Of a stretch of 42,374 nucleotides of DNA, positions 1-42,374 are shown in pieces. The DNA is taken from the NCBI GenBank assembly GCA_025399215.1, contig MU621237.1, positions 1 to 42,374 on the forward strand. Reading direction: 5' to 3'. Under the pieces are notes generated by a model. The model was not told the DNA's origin and did no database searches. It worked only from the letters and a program-made list of their open reading frames with translations. This DNA comes from Globomyces pollinis-pini. Lineage: Eukaryota; Chytridiomycota; Chytridiomycetes; Rhizophydiales; Globomycetaceae. A program made the translations under genes and the position numbers. Position 1 is the first letter of the stretch, and each line of letters begins with the position of its first letter.

Positions 1-615
1 AAACACGAGCAAAAGAAACAAGAGCAACAACAGAAGCATGAACAAAAGAAGCAAGTGTATCAATCTCCTCCTCCACCAGTTCATCAAGCTCCTCCTCCTC
101 CTCCACCAGTCAAACAAGCTCCACCGCCACCAGTTCATCAAGCTCCTCCACCTCCACCTCCACCTCCAGTTCATCAAGCTCCACCACCGCCACCAGTTCA
201 TCAAGCTCCACCGCCACCAGTTCATCAAGCTCCTCCACCTCCACCACCTCCACCACCAGTTCATCAAGCTCCAGTTCATCAAGCTCCTCCACCTCCAGTT
301 CATCAAGCACCTCCACCTCCACCACCAGTTCATCAAGCTCCACCACCTCCTCCACCAGTTCATCAAGCACCTCCACCTCCAGTATATCAAGCTCCTCCTG
401 TTCATCAAGCTCCTCCTCAACAGCAACCTTACCAAGCTCCTCCAGCTGTGCACCAAATGCAAATGAAAGCAGCATATAACCAAAATGCACCTGCAAACCC
501 AGCACCACCAATGGCAAACCATGCAAATCCAGTCAAATCTCTTCATGGAATCTTTGGTTCAATCAAACAAGTAGCTGAATCTAAAATCCAAAAAGTAGTT
601 AACAAATTCCATTAG
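1..615 (+). CDS. Proline-rich VHQA-repeat protein, 5-prime partial
   Basis: The frame is open from base 1 to a TAA at 613-615, giving 204 visible codons; the true start lies upstream of the window. The first 18 residues are Lys/Gln/Glu-rich. Residues of about 20-140 are a repeat of the type PPPP-VHQA with variable proline runs. The last 60 residues lose the repeat and end in a basic, possibly amphipathic helix (FGSIKQVAESKIQKVVNKFH). No catalytic domain or membrane segment is visible. Such repeats are typical of low-complexity scaffold, cell-wall or secreted proteins, but the function is unknown. The opposite-strand and other-frame open frames across the repeat are shadows of it. Confidence 0.7.
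   Translation, partial: KHEQKKQEQQQKHEQKKQVYQSPPPPVHQAPPPPPPVKQAPPPPVHQAPPPPPPPPVHQAPPPPPVHQAPPPPVHQAPPPPPPPPPVHQAPVHQAPPPPVHQAPPPPPPVHQAPPPPPPVHQAPPPPVYQAPPVHQAPPQQQPYQAPPAVHQMQMKAAYNQNAPANPAPPMANHANPVKSLHGIFGSIKQVAESKIQKVVNKFH
55..440 (+). repeat. CCA/CCT-rich coding repeat (PPPPVHQA)
   Basis: Roughly fifteen imperfect copies of a unit encoding a proline run followed by VHQA. The number of CCA/CCT codons varies between copies, while the segment GTTCATCAAGCT is almost invariant. This is an unequal-exchange or slippage-prone coding repeat inside the proline-rich gene. Confidence 0.9.
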
Positions 616-7220: not shown

Positions 7221-8333
7221 ATGGCTGATCCTTTAGACTGCGCACTCGATTTACTGAGAAGATTACCTCCAACTAAAACTAAACTCAACTTGAATAAATT
7301 ATGCTCTTTACGTCCCGATCTACAAGATGACTTGCTCTCTTCCGTTGATCATCAACTACAAGTTGCTAAATGTTCTGCCACTGGTAAAGACTTTTTACTC
7401 TGTGATTATAATCGTGACGGTGAATCTTATAGGTAGATATCGTTTATTAAACATTATTAGGTTACTAGTGATGCATCTAATACTATCATAGGTTCGTGTT
7501 TTCTTACTAACCTGAAGGTATCTATTGATTCTTATTCATTCAGATCTCCTTGGAGTGGTGAATTTCAACCTAAAACTGATGGTGTTAAACCTAGTCCTCA
7601 ATTGGCCCAATTGGAAAAACAAGCCAATGATGCATTTGAAACTTACAGAGAATTGTATGACCCTTGTTCTTATCTTAGGTATTTTGGCGGTGGTGTGTCC
7701 TCTGTTTACCTTTGGGATTTAGATGAGGGGTTTGCTGGTGTTGTTTTAATTAAAAATGGTTTGTCCCTTCTTTTAATTAATCTCTAGTCAATTCTCAAGG
7801 TAATAACTAGCTACTATTAACTCGCAAGGTATAGTTAATTTAAATCTTATTTGAAAGGTACACCGGATCATAAATAATACTCTAGGTACGGATGAATTCG
7901 AAATTAATGGAAAGGTTCACAATCTGGTTCATGGGACTCGATCCATGTCATTGAAGTAAATCCAACAAAAAAATCAGCAACATACAAAACAACATCATCT
8001 ATCATTCTTCAAGTAGTCACTCCAACATCATCAACACCAAAAGTTGATCTCGCTGGTTCTTTAACCCGTCAAGTATCTAAACAACCAAACTAATTGCAGG
8101 CTGAAATGGAATTCCCCCTCGATGATTACACATCTCATGTTCATAACATTGGTCGATTAGTAGAAGAAATGGAAAACAAGATGCGAAGTAGTATTGAACA
8201 AGTTTATTTTGGCAAAACAAAAGATATATTGAATGATTTACGATCTTTGAATGATTTGAAGGTGGTAAAGAACCAAGCAGGAATTACTGCCCAATTGTTA
8301 GGGAAATTAAATGAACGTGGTCAGAAGAGTTAA
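7221..8333 (+). CDS. CAP2: F-actin-capping protein subunit beta
   Basis: Exons 7221-7432, 7544-7758, 7915-8072 and 8100-8333 give 272 aa. Family landmarks are clear after splicing: [13 protein letters not shown] at the start, [16 protein letters not shown] across intron 1, [18 protein letters not shown] before intron 2, [11 protein letters not shown] after it, and SLTRQ spliced to [20 protein letters not shown], then YFGKTKDIL. The beta subunit pairs with alpha and blocks actin barbed ends in cortical actin patches. Introns 1 and 2 are 111 and 156 nt, far longer than the local norm, and each divides completely into consecutive GT...AG units (separate entries). Intron 3 is 27 nt. Length agrees with the family (about 270-290 aa). 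Confidence 0.93.
7433..7543 (+). other. Intron 1 of capping beta: four tandem GT...AG units
   Basis: This 111-nt intron tiles without remainder into 7433-7460 (28), 7461-7491 (31), 7492-7517 (26) and 7518-7543 (26). Every unit starts GT and ends AG, with AG|GT at each junction. Each has a branch-point-like A-rich motif near its end: TTAAAC, CTAATAC, a perfect TACTAAC in unit 3, and TTGATT in unit 4. Removing one unit leaves the next GT directly at the exon edge, so the stack could be spliced stepwise as zero-length exons or removed as a single intron. Confidence 0.75.
7759..7914 (+). other. Intron 2 of capping beta: five tandem GT...AG units
   Basis: This 156-nt intron tiles into 7759-7799 (41, with an alternative AG at 7787 giving 29), 7800-7828 (29), 7829-7857 (29), 7858-7885 (28) and 7886-7914 (29). 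Each unit begins GTA or GTT and ends AAG or TAG, with AG|GT junctions at 7800, 7829, 7858 and 7886. The downstream exon also begins GT. The units are not alike in sequence, so they are not a recent simple tandem duplication. Phase 1 is restored exactly at AAT-G|GT-TCA, giving the conserved residues before WDSIHV. Confidence 0.75.
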
Positions 8334-14847: not shown

Positions 14848-16311
14848 TTACTCAACAACTGACAATTGATTTGAATGAACAGATTCACCCAGTTCATCTT
14901 GACTTAATCCCGAGGATTTTAAACTATGAAAATGAGTCAACAATCCATCCCAAAATTCAACACCCTAATGATTCAATTAAGATATTCAACTTACATTCTG
15001 ATGAAATTCGACTTGTGTGTTTGTATAATTTTGAAATAATTCTTTAAAATCAATTAATTTGATTTGATTGAAAAATTCAATTTCATGAGTGACTTGAATT
15101 GAAAATTCTCTGGATGTATCTTCACTAGATGTGACAGCAGCTTGCAACTATAGAAAAAAGAAACTATTATTTGAAATGAATTTACCTCTTCGATTTTAGT
15201 GTTTAATTTACCAAGTCGATCTTGACGAGTTTTTTCTGGATCAACACCTTTTAAATCATTGATTTTGTCTTTAAAGAATCCTGATATTCCTGGTGATTTT
15301 CCAGTAGCCATGGCTCGATCACGATCCATAGTATTTGATGCTAAAAATCGATTTAGTTCTTCATGATCAATTTGTTTTTGATCTCGAAGTTTTAAGGTAT
15401 CTTTTGCAGCTTGGCAATACGAGACGTAGTCATGTAATCCATTTACATATGTGAGATTCTCATTCAGTGACTGTATTTAAGATGAATTGAAATGTCATCA
15501 ACTTACCTTTTCTTTGAAATTTTTCGCATATTGCTTCACTTGTGTTCCAAAATGTAATAAATCTGAATATAAACAGTTTAAAATAGGAATATAAACCTTC
15601 TTTACTCTCTGTTTCCATTGCACTTAATGATTCTATAGATCCACCAAACATTTCATATTCCACTCCCATATCTAAAAGTGGTTAATTGATTAACGTGGAT
15701 ATAATATCTGTTGAATCGTGCAACATAATAAGATATGAATTTGTAAATTTACCAGATTGTAGTTTATAAAGCTTTGAATGTAATTTTTCAATATTAGCAA
15801 TATTTGTTTCAAATTTATCAATCTGATCTCGTAATTGAACGAATTTATCGTCCGGGATTTTAACTTTAGCGAAAGCGTTCACAAGTACTTCACTCATTTG
15901 ATTTCCAATAGTATCAAATACAAATCCATTTTCTTTCTTTACACTAGTATCAACAAATGCCATTTGATCGACTGTTAAGAATTTATGAAAAACATCTGAA
16001 TTGGAGAGAATTTGATGACGACGTATACGATCAATAAAGCATTGCAATGATAATCTTCGTTTTTCCAAGAAATCCTCACTGAATCTATCACCAGTGACAT
16101 ATTCCATACGATGTTTTCCAGGTAGAGGTGGAATAATACACTGAGGATGAGTTTCGCAAAACCATCTATGTAAAGTAACAAAATCCTGAAAACGTCTTCT
16201 CACTTGTTTAGTTGAAGTGACCAGATACGATACAAAGGCATTAGAACCTTCTCCGTGCTTTAATGGTTCTGAGACTGTTACTTGTGTTGATTCTGTATTA
16301 TTCTCGTCCAT
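14848..16311 (-). CDS. SNX4: Sorting nexin 4 (PX-BAR)
   Basis: Six exons: 16311-15753, 15671-15597, 15562-15507, 15470-15186, 15147-14995 and 14964-14848 (414 aa). Introns are 81, 34, 36, 38 and 30 nt. The PX domain (residues about 20-140) contains VRRRFQDFVTLH, the PPLPGKHR proline motif and R-R-LSLQCFIDRI. A BAR-type coiled C-terminal half follows, with LRDQKQIDHEELNRFL, GFFKDKINDLKGVDPE, and the typical final HQN-GVEFWDGLL. Snx4/Atg24 binds PI3P and drives endosome-to-Golgi retrieval and selective autophagy. The start at 16311 follows an open frame lacking an earlier ATG. The plus-strand frame 14784-15047 overlaps the last two exons and is therefore not a gene. Confidence 0.9.
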
Positions 16312-27976: not shown

Positions 27977-28374
27977 TGTAAATTGACTATTTCATAAAAT
28001 TGATATTGTATTTGTAAAAGGGACAACGTGATATTTTAGATACCCATCACCAAATTGCCGTTTTTGCCAAAACTTGGCAGTTGCAGTCAGGGGCTACATA
28101 GGAGAATTAGATATGCTATCAATTATTATATTATATGTTTTTCGTACACCGAACTTTGGTTGAGATCACCCATAAAATGTAAGTACCTAATTGCCCTTCA
28201 ATTATAACTTCTGTAAATTCACTCTAATCTTTCATTGTTCTATTAGGTTGAGTTGGTGGAACTTCAACTATTCTGCAGTTGCCATAATTCCGGAAAGGTA
28301 GGAAACGTGTTCTAGCAACGTGTTTAAATCAATGTCTATAAAACCTGGAAAAATAAACAGCTTCGATTATCGAA
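27977..28374. other. Divergent spacer upstream of the first phosphatase gene
   Basis: About 400 bp between the microexon gene (minus) and the first histidine phosphatase (plus). No exon chain or repeat is recognised; a TATA-like TCTATAAAACC lies at about 28335-28345, 30 bp before the ATG at 28375. Confidence 0.45.
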
Positions 28375-29732
28375 ATGAATTTCAATATAGTTTTGGCGTT
28401 ACTCTCATTGTATACAACCGCAAAATCCGATGATGACTTTAAGCTTTTGAAAAATTTGGGAACAAAAAGTCCTTATCCAAGTCCAGATTATGAAGAATAC
28501 GAGGGAAAGTGCAAACTGGTGCAAGTTCAGTTGTATGGTAGACATGGTGCAAGATATGCAACCAAAAGCAAATCGAAAGATATGTTCCAAGTCGCAAAAT
28601 ACTTAAGGGAAAATGCAGACAAAGTTAAAGATCCATATCTCGCCAATTTGACCATTCCTTTCCCTGAAGGGATTGACGGAGCACTAGCCCCAGTTGGTAT
28701 GTTCGACTCTCAATTTATTTTTAGGATTTAAAGATATGAAAAACTTCGGTGATCGGTTCAACAAGCGTTATAGTAAAGTGCTATCCCAAAAAGGAACTGT
28801 ATTATATTCCAGTATATCGGTAAAGAATTTCACCTAACGAAAGCCTCGCGTTGTAGACTCTGCTAAGTCATTTATGGATGGCTTTATGGGTGCCAGCGCT
28901 AACCTGGTTAATGTAACTGTGCTTAACAAAGATCTTGATGCAGATCTTAACCCTGGCGATGCTTGTTCTGAACATGCAAAGTTTGAGAACGAAACAGAAG
29001 CGAATTTATGGTCTGATATCTATTTAACACCAATATCTACTCGTCTTTCCAGCCAAATTGGAATTCCTATTGATACCAAACAATCATTTACCTTAATTGA
29101 CATTTGTGCAGCACAAGTTGGTTTATTGGGATATAAAAGAAATGAAGGAGTCTGTTACCTTTTCTCTGATGATGAAATTAGAGGCTACTCAATTGCTGAT
29201 AAACTTGAAAAATACTATACTCATGGATATGGGCAAGAAATTAATACCAAAATGATGTGCAGTGCTTGGACAGGATTAAGAAATGAGATTTTGAGAAGAC
29301 AAGAACTCAAGATAACCTATGCATTGCGATTTGGACAGTAACCATTGTTATTATTAATGAAATAGTGCTGAAACTATTATCCCATTGGTTAGCACTTTGG
29401 GACTATTCAAAGATGAAGTTGCACCTGTTGCTAGTATGACTTTCAACCAACTATTGAAACATAAGTTCAAAATCACAAAGATTAGTCCATTTCAGGCAAA
29501 CGTGGCATTCGAAGTTTATGATTGCGGTAAAGAGGGCAGTTCATTACGTGTCTTATTAAATGAAGAACCAATTAAAATTCCAGCACTGGAAAAATCTGAT
29601 GATGATTTGTATAATGTGGATGAGTTTTTCAAAGTATTTGGAAATTTATTAGACTGTAACTTTGATGAAGTCTGTAAGAATGAAAAGAAGACCTTTGGAG
29701 GGTGGAACAGAGTGTACTCACCTTTGAACTAG
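28375..29732 (+). CDS. Secreted MINPP-like histidine phosphatase, paralogue 1
   Basis: Exons 28375-28696, 28725-28819, 28844-29337 and 29366-29732 give 425 aa; introns are 28, 24 and 28 nt. The N-terminus is a signal peptide (MNFNIVLALLSLYTTAKS). The histidine acid phosphatase signature is YGRHGARYAT (phospho-His nucleophile), then SSISPRVVDSAKSF. The proton-donor motif FGHAETIIPL is present with the His codon split by the third intron (phase 2). HAE rather than HD is typical of the MINPP branch, which dephosphorylates phytate and other inositol polyphosphates. It has N-glycosylation sites (NLTIP, NVTV) and Cys pairs consistent with secretion. It is the first of three tandem paralogues. Confidence 0.85.
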
Positions 29733-29830
29733 TTTATCTGAGCACATTTCCTTAATAAAAAGACATTTCATCTGAAAATTAATATGACTTCCATGCACAT
29801 TAAGAATAGTTACAATATGACTAAATTATA

Positions 29831-30304
29831 TTATTCTTCAACTTCTGTACTTTCATCAACAACATCTGTGGCGGCTTCATTGCCATCTACAGTTGCAGCA
29901 TCAACTTCTGCCACTTCCTCGTTATCTACAGCTGTAGCATCAACTTCTGTGACTTCAGCTTTACTTTGAACGGCTTCAACTTGATTTGACTCTGCCTGTT
30001 TCGCTGCTTTTCGCGCTTTTGCAGCTTTGACTATGTCCACAATACCTTTGGTTGCGTTTGCAACCTCTCCGGCAGTACCTTCTGCTTCGCCATTAGCACC
30101 AACTGCACCACCAACTCCACCAAGAATTTCTCCAATACCCTTTCCGATACCATCATCTCCAGCTGCTTCTCCGGATGCAGCAGCAACACCTCCAAGAGTT
30201 TTTAGAATTGCTGCTGCTATTTCAGTTCCTTCTCCAGCTGGCACTGGCATGGAATATACAAAAGTACATTGAATCAGAGAAATAAACAAAATATTGAATT
30301 GCAT
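29831..30304 (-). CDS. Small secreted Ala/Gly-rich protein with acidic tail
   Basis: 157 aa, intronless, ATG at 30304. Residues 1-18 form a clear signal peptide (MQFNILFISLIQCTFVYS). The mature part begins with an Ala/Gly-rich helix-prone segment (AAAILKTLGGVAAASG, then GKGIGEILGGVGGAVGANG), a basic AKARKAAKQ patch, and an acidic C-terminus rich in VDA/EVE. It has no cysteines after the signal. Small size, secretion and location between two secreted or anchored phosphatases are consistent with an extracellular or host-interface role, but no function can be assigned. It is encoded opposite to the flanking phosphatases, converging with paralogue 1. Confidence 0.7.
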   Translation of the reverse strand: MQFNILFISLIQCTFVYSMPVPAGEGTEIAAAILKTLGGVAAASGEAAGDDGIGKGIGEILGGVGGAVGANGEAEGTAGEVANATKGIVDIVKAAKARKAAKQAESNQVEAVQSKAEVTEVDATAVDNEEVAEVDAATVDGNEAATDVVDESTEVEE

Positions 30305-30712
30305 TAGGTTAAGTTACCTTCAGATACATATTCAGAGACTATTTATTGTAAACGACCAAGGCTCATACGGGTTTCAATACTGTTTTGGTGTTTGGGGCGA
30401 TTACTTAGAGCCTTGCTGTTAGTGTCAACTGTGCGGTGGAATACTGAAGGATATTAAGTATGGAGCAGTTGGGTTGGGCAGTTTGAACTTGAGAGTGATA
30501 AACAGACCGTGTTTTCTTACACCGCCCAGAAGTTAATCAAATAAGTAAACGGAATTCCAAATGGGAAAATTAGTCGAAAATATGAATTCAATTCATATTT
30601 TTCTATCAAAGTATAACACTAGCACTTTAAGTGTTGATTTGATCTGGTACCTTGGGTCAAAGACATTGTTTCATCTTTACCAATTTCAACTGAAGACTTC
30701 CTGGGCTAAAGG
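30305..30712. other. Divergent spacer
   Basis: About 400 bp between the secreted protein gene (minus) and phosphatase paralogue 2 (plus). It contains an inverted pair GAATTCAATTCATATTTTTC near 30582-30604 and its partial complement. No exon found. Confidence 0.35.
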
Positions 30713-32127
30713 ATGACAAGCAAACGTGGATCGAAACTGATTAAACCTTGCAAATTTCTTATCGTATTGATATTATTAACTTGGATGTTTTTTCAACTGT
30801 CTGCTTTTGACTACATAAAGCCATCACAAATAATTCATACAGAAAACAAAGTAGATATTACTACATTACTAGGTTCAAAATCTCCATATCCAAAAAATGA
30901 ATATGAAAACTATACAGGCACTTGTAAGCTTCAACAAATACATGTTTTTGCTAGACATGCAGCAAGATACGCAACAAGGAGTAAACTCAATAAAATGCAC
31001 ACCCTTGTGCATATATTAAGAGACAATGTATCAAATCAGACCCATCCTAGACTTTCAAACTTGACTATCCCATTTCCAATTGACCAACCTGGTATGCTGG
31101 CTCCTTCTGGGATCAGAGACCTTCAATCCTTTGCCACCAGACTTAAACATCGATATTATGAACTCATTCAGCAGTCAAATGCAACCAGATTGTTTTCAAG
31201 TAATTCAGTAAGTAGTACTGGGAATATTTAACTCACCATAGCCAAGAGTTGTCGATAGTGCAAACATTATCAGGAAAGTGTTATTTGATAATCAATCATC
31301 GAAACTGGAAATAATAAAATCTAGATCCACTGATGCAGATTTAAATCCTACACAGTCTTGTCGTAAATACAAGAAAGATGCCAGATTTGTTCCAATTGAA
31401 GATGAAATATACAAGTCTCGAGTATTGAAACCACTGACAGAAAGGATCAGTAATACAATTGAATACACTCTTACAGACAAACAAGTGTATACATTGATGG
31501 ATATCTGCGCAGCTCAGCTTGCGTTGCTGAATTTTAAAATGGACGACGGAGTTTGCTATCTGTTTACAGAAAATGATTTAATTTCATATGGGATCATGGA
31601 TAATTTGGAAAAATATTACAAATTGGGTTATGGACTTGAAATCAACAAATGGATGACTTGCAGCTACTGGGAGTCTTTGTATTCAGAATTAGCGCAACTG
31701 AATGGTAACCATATCAATATTTCAATGAGATTTTCTCAGTAAACCTTAATGAGTTAATGTTGGTAGTGCAGAAACAATCATTCCTATAGTTACTTCATTG
31801 GGTCTATTCAACGATCCAATCAAACCCACAGCATCACTTACCTTTAATCAGCTGGTTTCTCACCAATTTCAAGTGTCCAAATTTGGTCCCTTTCAAGGAA
31901 ATCTCATTTTTGAAGTATATGATTGTGGAACAGATTCGCGACAAATGCGATTTCTATTAAATGAAAAACCACAACCGATCCCTTCTTGTAAAAAAATGCC
32001 GAACGGTTTATGCAACGTCGATGAGTTCTTCAACATTTATCGAGAGTTATTAAATTGTAAATATGATACTGTGTGTGAGAACAAAAAGAAAACATCTGGA
32101 GGCTGGAATCGCGATTACCTAGTTTGA
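30713..32127 (+). CDS. Membrane-anchored MINPP-like phosphatase, paralogue 2
   Basis: Exons 30713-31207, 31242-31738 and 31767-32127 give 450 aa; introns are 34 and 28 nt. A basic N-terminus followed by FLIVLILLTWMFFQLSAF predicts a type II membrane anchor or uncleaved signal. The signature is FARHAARYAT: the catalytic His and both Arg are kept, but the usual Gly of RHG is Ala. The donor motif SHAETIIPI is intact, with the His codon again split by an intron. The first intron of paralogues 1 and 3 (after LAP-G) is absent here. Several N-x-S/T sites are present. The Gly-to-Ala change might affect rate or specificity (inference). Confidence 0.82.
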
Positions 32128-32731
32128 TCCAACTATTTGGTAAAGTGGATTATTTAGATGGTTATAACATAAATCGTCTTTTTAATATCTTATATAATCA
32201 CTTTTTCCTATTGAATGTAGTGATATTCAATACTTTTGAAATTAATCATCTGTACAAGTGACACAACGGTTAATTCAAGTAACATGTACACTCAACACAG
32301 ATCTTGGACTAATAGCGATAATGAATCACAAACTTAATCATTACATTGCTCATTATCAATAGCTAATGCTGAAGAGTGTGAATATTAATATCAACCATAA
32401 ATGCTGTTGCATAATCATCTGTTTCATTCACATGCAGCGACTTTTTCATGGTTTGACCGTTATTGGCTCAACACATATACCCCAGTTTATGAATTGTAAA
32501 GATAGTAATGAGGTAATGTACTCAGTTTTGTATTCAACACGAGAAGCGTAAAGTAGTTGCTTGGCAGTGAAGTTATACCTACATGTATCAGGGGAGTTAC
32601 AGTGATAGGGTTGAATTTTACACAGTGTACATGAAACGAAATGAAACATACAATTCCATTTGGGGGTTTTTCATCAAGTAAAATCAATCGAATTAAGTAT
32701 AAAATCATACCCAAATTTGTAAAAGTAACGC
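32128..32731. other. Spacer between phosphatase paralogues 2 and 3
   Basis: About 600 bp, AT-rich, with no exon chain recognised on either strand. A TATA-like AAGTATAAAATC lies at 32695-32706, about 30 bp before the next ATG, matching the position of the TATA-like box before paralogue 1. Confidence 0.45.
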
Positions 32732-34137
32732 ATGATGAAATTAAACAATCCTGTACGTGCTGCTATATTTTGTGTACTAGCTTTGGTCGCGTTGTTTTTT
32801 GGTGTTTATTTTGGGATACAAGCTTTTACATCAAAACCTTCAACGAGGTCTTTCAATGTCGGTGCATCTCTCGGTTCAAAGTCACCGTATCCCATCGGCA
32901 ATTACTCTAGCTACCAAGGATCATGCAAGCTGGTACAAGTGCAAATGTATTGTCGACATGGTGTAAGATACGGAACTTCTAAAAACCTTCAAAATATGTT
33001 TGATTTAGCCAGAATGTTTCGAGGAAATTCAAGCAAGATAAATGATTCCAAACTATCAAATTTAACTGTTCCATTTCCTGAAGACCAACCAGGTGAACTA
33101 GCCCCGATTGGTATATATTCATCTATCTGACATATAGGATTTCAAAACCTCAAAGATTTTGGCAAAAGGTGGTTGACTAGATATCCGCAACTCGTGAATT
33201 TACAATCGATCAGTTTACGCTCTAGCAACTCCGTAAGCAGTCAAATCTAATTGTAGTCGCGTGTAATGAACTCTGCTGAGTCCTTTATGAAAGGATTATT
33301 AGATGGTCAAGCACCAAGTGTTAACAATTCAATTATTGGTGATCGAGCAACAGATGCTGATATCAATCCAACCATATCCTGTTCAAAATACATGGTTGAA
33401 GAAAATCTTCATGAAGCGGAAGCGAAGTCATTTAAATCACTAGCATTTACTTCAATGGCTGAGCGTATTAGCAAAAGAATCGGATTCCAATTGTCATTGG
33501 ACCAATCGTTAACTCTGCTTGATCTTTGCATAGCACAAATCGGTTTACTGGAATACAATACCACGGATGGTGTATGTTATCTTTTTGAACAAAAAGATTT
33601 TCAAAACTATGGACTTTTAGATAACGTGGATAAATATTATAGTCTTGGCTATGGACATTCAATCAATACCCAGATGACATGTAGTGCCTGGACAGGAATC
33701 TATAATGAAATGAAAAACGCTAGGAAGAAGGGACCATCAATGTCACTTCGATTCACTCAGTAAGTCAACTGATATTAATTTGAAGCGCGGAAACTATTAC
33801 CCCATTAGTAGCATCTTTGGGTTTATTTAACGACACGGTCTCTCCAACTGGATCTATGCCTTTTGACAGTCTCATGAATAATCAATTTCAAATTTCAAAA
33901 ATCAGTCCTTTTCAATCAAATATCATTTTCGAAGTTTATGAATGTGAACAAGACGGACTATCACTTCGAATACTTCTAAATGAGAATCAAGTAGATATTC
34001 CCAATCTACGAAAACAAGCGGATGGGTTATACTCTTTCAAGGATTTTTTTAAAAAGTACAAATCATTGATTGAATGTGATTACGACCAAGTTTGCGGAAA
34101 TCGAATTCAAACATTTGGTGGTTGGAATTCAAAGTAG
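32732..34137 (+). CDS. Membrane-anchored MINPP-like phosphatase, paralogue 3
   Basis: Exons 32732-33110, 33138-33232, 33257-33759 and 33786-34137 give 442 aa; introns are 27, 24 and 26 nt. A hydrophobic helix (AAIFCVLALVALFFGVYFG) follows a short basic head, predicting type II anchoring. The signature is YCRHGVRYGT with an extra Cys before the catalytic RHG. SSNS is spliced to SRVMNSAESF, a divergent version of PRVVDSA. The donor is FTHAETITPL with the His codon split by the last intron. All three paralogues share the domain order and C-terminal T/FGGWN; paralogues 1 and 3 share three intron positions. Function as for paralogue 1. Confidence 0.85.
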
Positions 34138-40919: not shown

Positions 40920-42374
40920 ATGAAGTTCGATAGTTTTTTCCTCGTTTTTTTCGTTTTTTTCTCTATGCCAAAACGATTCCTGAACGTTGAATACTATGGA
41001 ACTAGAACTGATATAAACGTCACCGATATGGAAGACTTGAGTGAAGTCAATACAACCATCAAGGCCTATTTTGGTGAAGACATTCCAGCTCCAGCTTCTC
41101 GGATTCAACTCTATGACCAACAAGGAAAGCTTATTACAGATTTGGATAACATTCCTGAAGAATATTTTATTAAAGGAGGTTCTTGTGTTGTTATTGGTAT
41201 TCCAACTCCACGTTCAAGACAACCTACTCAAAGTGTTAATGGTAATCTATTTGTTATATTTATATTATTTTATAGAGCAAAACACAAGCGGAAATCCTAT
41301 GAAATTATTGAAACGAAGCCATGAAAGCGAAGAGTTTATTAGAATTAACCGGCTAGGTCTTCACAATGCCCAAGATGCTCTCAAATATCTGCTCTTTCGG
41401 TTTGAAAAGACTATTAATGTTTCCAAACTTCCCAAAAAACTTGAGTTTAGAGAAAATTGTTTGGAACACCGGCTAGATAGAAGATCAACTTCTTATAATT
41501 TGGATAAACAGGACAATATTAAGATTCTCTTGGCAGTATCTGGTGCAGGCAAAACTCGCACTCTTCTTGAATTGCTACATCATAACTTTGGGTATTATTT
41601 TGTTATCAACTCATCTGAGTCTGATTTTGGATCTGCGGATATGCACTCTTGTCGGGTTCAATGTGACAAAGATCCAGCCAACGCTGCAGCATACATAAAT
41701 TTGTTATATTTTGTGCGAGTTTCTGTATGCAACGAACTTATTAGGCTTGGATATAATAAGCCAGGTGACATTTTATACGCCCAACTGCATCCCTTGTCTT
41801 TCTTTGGAAAGGATGTTTTTGCAGTACTGTATGATGATCTTCTTGTGGACACAATGCATATGTACAAGGGACTGGAAGAAGCTTTTCCATTTCTGGTAAT
41901 CGATGAAATCCAGCGGTCAATTGAGGGCCAGCATATCCACCGTCTGCCAGAAAGTAATAATCATCGGCCTTTCTATTCACCTCTGCTATATTACACCAAG
42001 AAATTGGGAAAGTTTACCAGTTTCATAGTAGCTGGCACTGGCATTAACTTTGAATATATCCAAGAACTGCTTGGGTCTGCGGCAATGAAGCCAGGACAAT
42101 ATTTCTGTCATCAAACTATCTCGAATTTTGACTCGCTGACACCAGAATTCATAACAGACTATTCAAGAACTGTTCTCACCGAACGAGGGTGTACTGAGGT
42201 CGAAGATGTGGTCTCAAAAATCAACTCGTTCACTCTTTGCCACGGACGCGCCAGATTCCTGGCATATATTATTGATGACTATTTTAGTACAAATGATATT
42301 GACCTGTCCATGAGTTCATTTATGAACAATATCTCAAATGTAGAATCTCCGATTTTCCCCTTGCGATTCTTACA
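40920..42374 (+). CDS. Crinkler (CRN)-type effector with P-loop NTPase, 3-prime partial
   Basis: Exons 40920-41241 and 41276 to the window end (473 codons visible) with a 34-nt intron in phase 1. The ATG at 40920 opens a Phe-rich hydrophobic stretch (FFLVFFVFFS) that could act as a signal; an inner ATG at 40965 would start directly at the ubiquitin-like CRN header (MPKRFLNVEYYGTR, IKAYFGEDIPAPASRIQLYD). Around residue 195 is a Walker A motif (AVSGAGKTRTLLELL) and around residue 313 a Walker B-like FPFLVIDEIQ, the NTPase module of CRN proteins. CRNs are modular intracellular effectors of oomycetes and some fungi that act in host nuclei. The C-terminal effector module lies beyond the window. 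Two minus-strand frames (41658-41980) are shadows. Confidence 0.85.

Follow-up and report, generated by a model that had tools for sequence, protein, structure and literature searches.

A gene for the beta subunit of the F-actin-capping protein (CAPZB/CAP2) in the chytrid Globomyces pollinis-pini (order Rhizophydiales) is interrupted by 111 nt that read as four ultrashort introns joined end to end, at positions 7433-7543 of the stretch of contig MU621237.1 analysed here (42,374 nt, hereafter the window; contig C148 of the scanned genome, which comprises 18.5 Mb in 459 contigs). We consider it likely that this interruption is one of many concatemers in Globomyces, in which 2 to 10 complete U2-type ultrashort introns follow each other with exons of zero length between them and are removed unit by unit, the mode of removal being the part that is read, as probable, from sequence features.

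The anatomy of this first array (array A) agrees with what the first-pass annotation had proposed. The 111 nt tile exactly as 28+31+26+26, each piece running from GT to AG and leaving no remainder, and the borders are indeed set by the conserved capping protein: cutting out 7433-7543 joins NRDGESYR to SPW without a gap in 14 of 15 aligned proteins (two of the 15 from Globomyces; the exception, P0060, has five residues fewer there), and the junction is also gap-free against the solved CapZ-beta structure. The spliced product carries Pfam F_actin_cap_B, and its top match is the F-actin-capping protein beta subunit of the same species, with 99% identity, followed by the counterpart from Globomyces sp. 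JEL0801. In the tiling test the intron interior was subjected to dinucleotide shuffles, and a shuffle was counted when it could be split into GT..AG units of 23-39 nt; 8 of 20,000 shuffles of array A tile. AGGT, which had been said to be rare by chance in such a sequence, occurs three times internally against 0.55 expected. The same gene holds a second array (array B), missing from the first-pass list, at 7800-7914; it tiles as 29+29+28+29, in only 1 of 20,000 shuffles by chance, and a 29-nt intron followed by a 12-nt exon lies just upstream of it.

Arrays across the genome

Introns were placed in a sample of 292,374 bp (stretches of 10 contigs plus the window, with ca. 13,000 bases masked as N) by a simple gene finder, self-trained on that sample, which yielded 139 genes and 578 introns. 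Thirteen arrays with 66 units were then delimited by hand from chains of AGGT, from a gene-finder run permitting zero-length exons and from removals that restored a protein, a selection that was not blind. The arrays span 53-289 nt and their units 24-35 nt. Nine have at least four units, namely CAPZB A and B (4 each), a Rab8-like GTPase (RAB8, 5), a CLK-like kinase (5), CHMP3/VPS24 (10), a GDSL lipase (8), a PhyH dioxygenase (10), MCM8 (6) and an SDR gene (5); the other four have two or three, namely an M48 peptidase (2), a MutS homologue (2), KAP (2) and an unconfirmed C2 gene, C2a (3). In 11 of the 13, a conserved protein is regained once the whole array is cut out, SDR and C2a being the two not judged. 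Against solved structures, the resulting junction has no gap in RAB8, CHMP3 and CLK and a one-residue gap in MCM8; in the lipase, PhyH, M48 peptidase, MutS and KAP genes a Pfam match runs across it.

The longest run, ten units over 289 nt in CHMP3 (locus L027, minus strand, 980-1268), divides the conserved N-terminal residues from the remainder of the protein. P0122, the CHMP3 protein publicly annotated for this species, has 158 aa; it lacks residues 1-69 of the spliced product, matching only from residue 70, and opens with residues that correspond to a reading of units 7-8. Array limits are less simple at two loci. The SDR model (L031) has a 4-nt first exon and then a 27-nt GT..AG piece directly before the array at 905, so that this array may have six units, counting the preceding piece. 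Before the MCM8 array lies an in-frame GT..AG piece of 27 nt, which the gene finder cut but which we retained as exon, since it aligns with human MCM8. Five further arrays were fetched, and a gene model spans the array in three of them (none for L033 and L034 minus). The array junction lies inside a Pfam match in Gpi1, where two array ends score nearly equal, and separates two Pfam matches in OTU1; a four-unit array at L036 654-768 has a Pfam DUF1168 match downstream only, in a gene that could be the splicing factor PRKRIP1.

A genome-wide scan of AG|GT spacing, which the first-pass annotation had put forward as the way to refute its idea, came out in its favour, since chains are commoner at intron spacing than at control spacing. 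Triples of (C/T)AGGT number 354 at a spacing of 24-35 nt and 32 at 44-55 nt, an 11-fold excess, and triples of plain AGGT 917 and 203, respectively (start-to-start distances; all triple counts include overlapping matches). The reversed-pattern control is nearly insensitive to spacing (1943 versus 1745 for AGGT, 216 versus 188 for (C/T)AGGT). Because reversed plain AGGT, the common word TGGA, outnumbers the real one at both spacings, the test rests on the spacing contrast and not on the ratio of real to reversed counts. Counted by eye, 100 of the 354 triples correspond to 60 places on contigs C1-C60, which suggests ca. 200 array-like places genome-wide, an extrapolated figure that includes some chance and coding repeats.

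Within the sample, seven chains of at least four AGGT occur at 24-35 nt, two of them resembling coding repeats, against a mean of 0.20 in 40 shuffles and 0, 1, 0, 0 and 0 chains at five other spacings. Such chains at 24-35 nt number 0 for AGTG, GAGT and AGCT, 1 for AGGA, 2 for TGGT and 4 for TGGA, TGGT having 3058 sites in the sample versus 1702 for AGGT. Single AGGT pairs were rejected as evidence of an array, their excess at 24-35 nt being modest (chains of exactly two: 67 at 24-35 nt, 69 at 44-55 nt, 54 in shuffles). The gene finder with zero-length exons permitted recovered only seven arrays in the sample and misdivided array A of CAPZB as 24+26 (7468-7517), probably owing to a scoring scheme in which GTT donors and serial introns cost too much. 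A candidate further AGGT chain lies on C7 at 15671-15759. At window 1-615, a proline-rich repeat open reading frame (ORF; VHQAPPPP repeats) gives, on its opposite strand, a spurious AGGT chain at 293-370.

These counts bear on the simplest alternative, that an AT-rich intron came by chance to hold AG|GT at a convenient spacing. Two-unit cases, tiling in 6-12% of shuffles, would be compatible with it, but arrays of at least four units tile in at most 8 of 20,000, or 0 of 5,000, shuffles (0-1 cases in the eight other than array A), and neither the 11-fold genome-wide excess nor the presence of two arrays in one gene is expected from it; we give this explanation practically no weight.

Compared with solitary introns, array units look like introns in their own right. 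The norm of 24-39 nt, noted earlier for the window, holds in the sample, where 560 of 578 introns measure 23-39 nt with a mode of 28 (the remainder being one of 57 nt and 17 longer than 60 nt). Unit length is 28.64+-2.23 nt in the 66 units and 28.73+-3.08 nt in 491 solitary introns (Kolmogorov-Smirnov p=0.49). Scored with a YTRAY-like branch-point motif learned from solitary introns, the latter average 3.01 (1.47 with shuffled interiors), all units 2.90 (1.36), and, with PhyH and SDR set aside, the 51 units of the remaining 11 arrays 3.03 (1.37). Hence, apart from a few weak branch sites, the units have the features of a U2-type ultrashort intron: GT-AG ends, 23-39 nt and a YTRAY-like site. 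At the same time, 126 unit pairs in the 11 diverged arrays resemble one another no more than random introns do (mean -0.036 versus -0.016), so that these units, if derived from duplicates, would be saturated with change. Our main argument for each unit being kept as a working intron is this persistence of length and branch site despite the divergence of neighbours.

Mode of removal and origin

Each unit has its own GT and AG, most also a branch-point-like YTRAY, and the units are joined end to end; the spliceosome would then remove them singly by intron definition, in any order or from 5' to 3'. One unit at a time would be expected because neighbours share an AG|GT junction and two spliceosomes hardly fit on adjacent units. 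Zero-length exons between complete mini-introns, as already proposed for array A, are the simplest reading of this anatomy; the accompanying idea that each splicing event regenerates a 5' splice site is not strictly required, since every unit brings its own GT, branch-like site and AG. By sequence, any order of removal, as well as a single step from the first GT to the last AG, leaves an identical mRNA. A duplicated unit, being an intron in its own right, would be nearly neutral, and would thereafter have to keep its signals, since their loss would leave a piece of 50-60 nt, outside the usual intron length. On balance we lean towards a distinct gene architecture, with up to ten autonomous ultrashort introns and zero-length exons, each intron selected and spliced separately by a spliceosome that is tuned to 23-39 nt and takes longer pieces only with strong donors, and with arrays that grow by duplication of AG|GT units as a ratchet, adding splicing steps while the mRNA is unchanged.

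The long introns of the sample are central to the competing view that each array is a single intron with a relic structure, derived from a tandem-duplicated unit, in which only the outermost GT and AG are now paired and the internal AG|GT are leftovers. This view draws on the non-tiling introns of 57-113 nt in the gene-finder set, on array donors that are somewhat weaker than solitary ones, and on a fission-yeast intron reported to extend across four 24-bp AGGT duplicates (PMC4974935). On the other hand, diverged units are still like solitary introns in length and branch points, whereas neutral relics should have decayed. The outer donors of arrays, moreover, are ordinary: GTAAGT or GTATGT opens 5 of 11 usable non-tiling long introns (left after excluding three of 362-388 nt, one masked, one of 232 nt and two that tile). 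The same donors open 40 of 491 solitary introns (p=0.0014 against the long ones), none of the 13 first units (p=0.011, likewise against the long ones) and 3 of 53 later units. In these sequences array donors resemble those of short introns, and we hold one-step removal of relic arrays to be unlikely.

Several observations count against autonomous, separately spliced units, and the confidence expressed above takes them into account. Sixteen of the 18 gene-finder introns longer than 45 nt do not tile, so that one-step removal of more than 50 nt seems possible, and a hard upper limit on intron length was dropped on this ground. Although one of these introns contains masked N and three of 362-388 nt are doubtful as well, several of 57-113 nt look real, and the non-tiling ones in this range that start with GTAAGT or GTATGT are C3:8722-8805, C3:23690-23802, C5:13268-13337 (minus), C3:24851-24907 and C1:2883-2945. 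The donor contrast itself may be inflated, as the gene finder calls long introns more readily when the donor is strong, and the solitary set comes from this self-trained gene finder, run without transcripts. The weaker donors of arrays (T at +3 in 25% of later units versus 9% of solitary introns) fit relaxed constraint, and some units have weak branch sites (0.4-1.0). Internal AG|GT was a selection criterion for arrays, and units that had lost it would be overlooked, which weakens the persistence argument. Shuffles tile in 2-12% for two- and three-unit arrays, all of which are weak individually; the SDR array adjoins the start codon and has no conserved upstream sequence by which to judge its junction, and the C2a gene has no Pfam match.

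Concerning the origin of the arrays, similarity exceeds the 99th percentile of background in all 10 unit pairs of the SDR array and in 18 of 45 of the PhyH array, where two units are identical; C2a and RAB8 have one similar pair each, and the remaining nine, including both CAPZB arrays, have none. As judged from these similarities, the SDR and PhyH arrays have grown by tandem duplication of whole units bounded by AG|GT. The tandem origin suggested earlier for array A is thus visible in SDR, in part of PhyH and in one C2a pair, but not in the CAPZB gene for which it was proposed, neither of whose arrays has internal similarity.

Units could instead have accumulated through the insertion of mobile, introner-like elements at AG|GT sites, existing intron junctions included. 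Introners are known to generate many introns (PMC9860276), and insertion at AG|GT would yield back-to-back units. Three arrays used as DNA queries (the third covered over 243 of 289 nt) returned only self-matches at E<=0.001 in the 18.5 Mb, in a search that skips very common words and could miss diverged copies of 28 nt, and the similar units of SDR and PhyH are confined to one array each. An exonic AG precedes the array in 8 of 9 arrays of at least four units versus 151 of 494 solitary introns, part of which excess may stem from AGGT-based searching. Taken together, unit similarity, DNA searches and exonic AG fit whole units having been duplicated at AG|GT, and not mobile elements dispersed through the genome, and we regard a pile-up of introners as very improbable.

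If unit-wise removal is correct, the arrays take segment-wise splicing to its smallest scale, in consecutive reactions on introns of ca. 28 nt with no exon between them, and would test how little exon a spliceosome needs. They also offer a natural series, from 2 to 10 units and from young to old, for introns multiplying in place, which is an open evolutionary question. On the practical side, gene prediction can fail at arrays, as in the truncated CHMP3 protein and in the JEL0801 capping protein (P0002), in which a unit of array B is coded.

The capping protein gene and the rest of the window

The structure of the capping protein gene is given in Table 1. The JEL0801 protein P0002 matches the window exons except at two places. 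The residues of the solitary intron at 7655-7678, missing from other aligned proteins, are retained in P0002 as coding (DPCSYLR); P0002 also has the 12-nt exon of the window in another frame, followed by array B unit 3, whose translation VHRIINNTL is unchanged within it. Units 1, 2 and 4 of array B would in JEL0801 be either absent or removed as introns by the predictor. The 12-nt micro-exon itself, which the public annotation P0001 omits, yields KNVNSQGS, and the counterpart in Kappamyces (P0005), KKVNSENG, supports it.

Table 1. Exons, solitary introns and array units of the CAPZB gene (window positions).
Feature	Positions	Strand	Evidence
Exon 1, F-actin-capping protein beta subunit gene (CAPZB/CAP2)	7221..7432	+	Alignments, Pfam F_actin_cap_B
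Array A unit 1, 28 nt, GT..AG, branch-like TTAAAC	7433..7460	+	Branch score 2.8
Array A unit 2, 31 nt, GT..AG with CTAATA	7461..7491	+	Branch score 3.7
Array A unit 3, 26 nt, GT..AG with TACTAACC	7492..7517	+	Branch score 5.1
Array A unit 4, 26 nt, GT..AG with TTCATT	7518..7543	+	Branch score 2.7
Exon 2	7544..7654	+	Sequence, protein alignment
Solitary 24-nt intron, multiple of three, stop-free	7655..7678	+	Sequence, protein alignment
Exon 3	7679..7758	+	Sequence, protein alignment
Solitary 29-nt intron	7759..7787	+	29-nt intron in gene-finder model too
12-nt micro-exon, encoding VNSQ with flanking bases	7788..7799	+	Sequence, protein alignment
Array B unit 1, 29 nt	7800..7828	+	
Array B unit 2, 29 nt	7829..7857	+	
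Array B unit 3, 28 nt, weak branch site (0.7)	7858..7885	+	
Array B unit 4, 29 nt	7886..7914	+	
Exon 5 (...SLTRQ)	7915..8072	+	Sequence, protein alignment
Solitary 27-nt intron, CTAAT branch-like site	8073..8099	+	Also in gene-finder model
Last exon including stop codon	8100..8333	+	Sequence, protein alignment

Elsewhere in the window, three adjacent, similar sets of phosphatase-like ORFs (RHGARYATK...), each split into several ORFs, lie at 28357-34137; we take them to be of the MINPP/phytase type, and the copies would be useful for comparing intron positions. A P-loop ORF (LAVSGAGKTRTLLELL) at 41041-42372 extends past the contig end and is reminiscent of Crinkler-type proteins. No tRNA and no Rfam match was found in the 42,374 nt of the window.

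Relation to known systems

The open-access literature, searched by title and start of abstract, holds no description of such arrays among the matches listed, a scope that leaves most subscription journals outside. The closest known kinds, which are recursive splicing, stwintrons and intron gain by AGGT duplication, are without this array form.

Many introns of recent common origin are a feature shared with introners, whose near-identical copies, however, lie dispersed in the genome; no dispersed copies were found for the three Globomyces arrays searched. Fungal stwintrons share with the arrays that a complex intervening sequence consists of several U2 introns. In a stwintron, as described in PMC9024468, the internal intron splits a splice element of the external one and must go first, so that removal takes two consecutive reactions whose order is fixed. 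Where donors abut, as in Lipomyces starkeyi, a single standard reaction is possible as well as two in succession (PMC7138796). In contrast, all 66 Globomyces units begin with GT and end with AG, no element is interrupted, and the order of removal would be free as far as the splice signals go.

Recursive splicing with zero-length exons, at the ratchet points of Drosophila and human, likewise juxtaposes AG|GT with no exon between, and there removal is stepwise (PMC5126111; PMC8605326). The 13 arrays, which were selected by this feature, have the same juxtaposition of acceptor and donor at each of their internal junctions. Animal ratchet points sit in long introns, whereas the Globomyces arrays are short and lie in a compact fungal genome, and their segments, seen here at the DNA level, are complete introns of ca. 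28 nt, up to ten in succession. Closest to the mode of growth discussed above is intron gain by AGGT tandem duplication, in which duplication of a segment bounded by AG|GT likewise makes GT...AG units, as seen directly in PhyH and SDR. The cases considered here comprise a single new intron, or one intron that spans four duplicates (the 24-bp repeats of fission yeast, PMC4974935), whereas in Globomyces the diverged units keep their individual intron signals at many loci.
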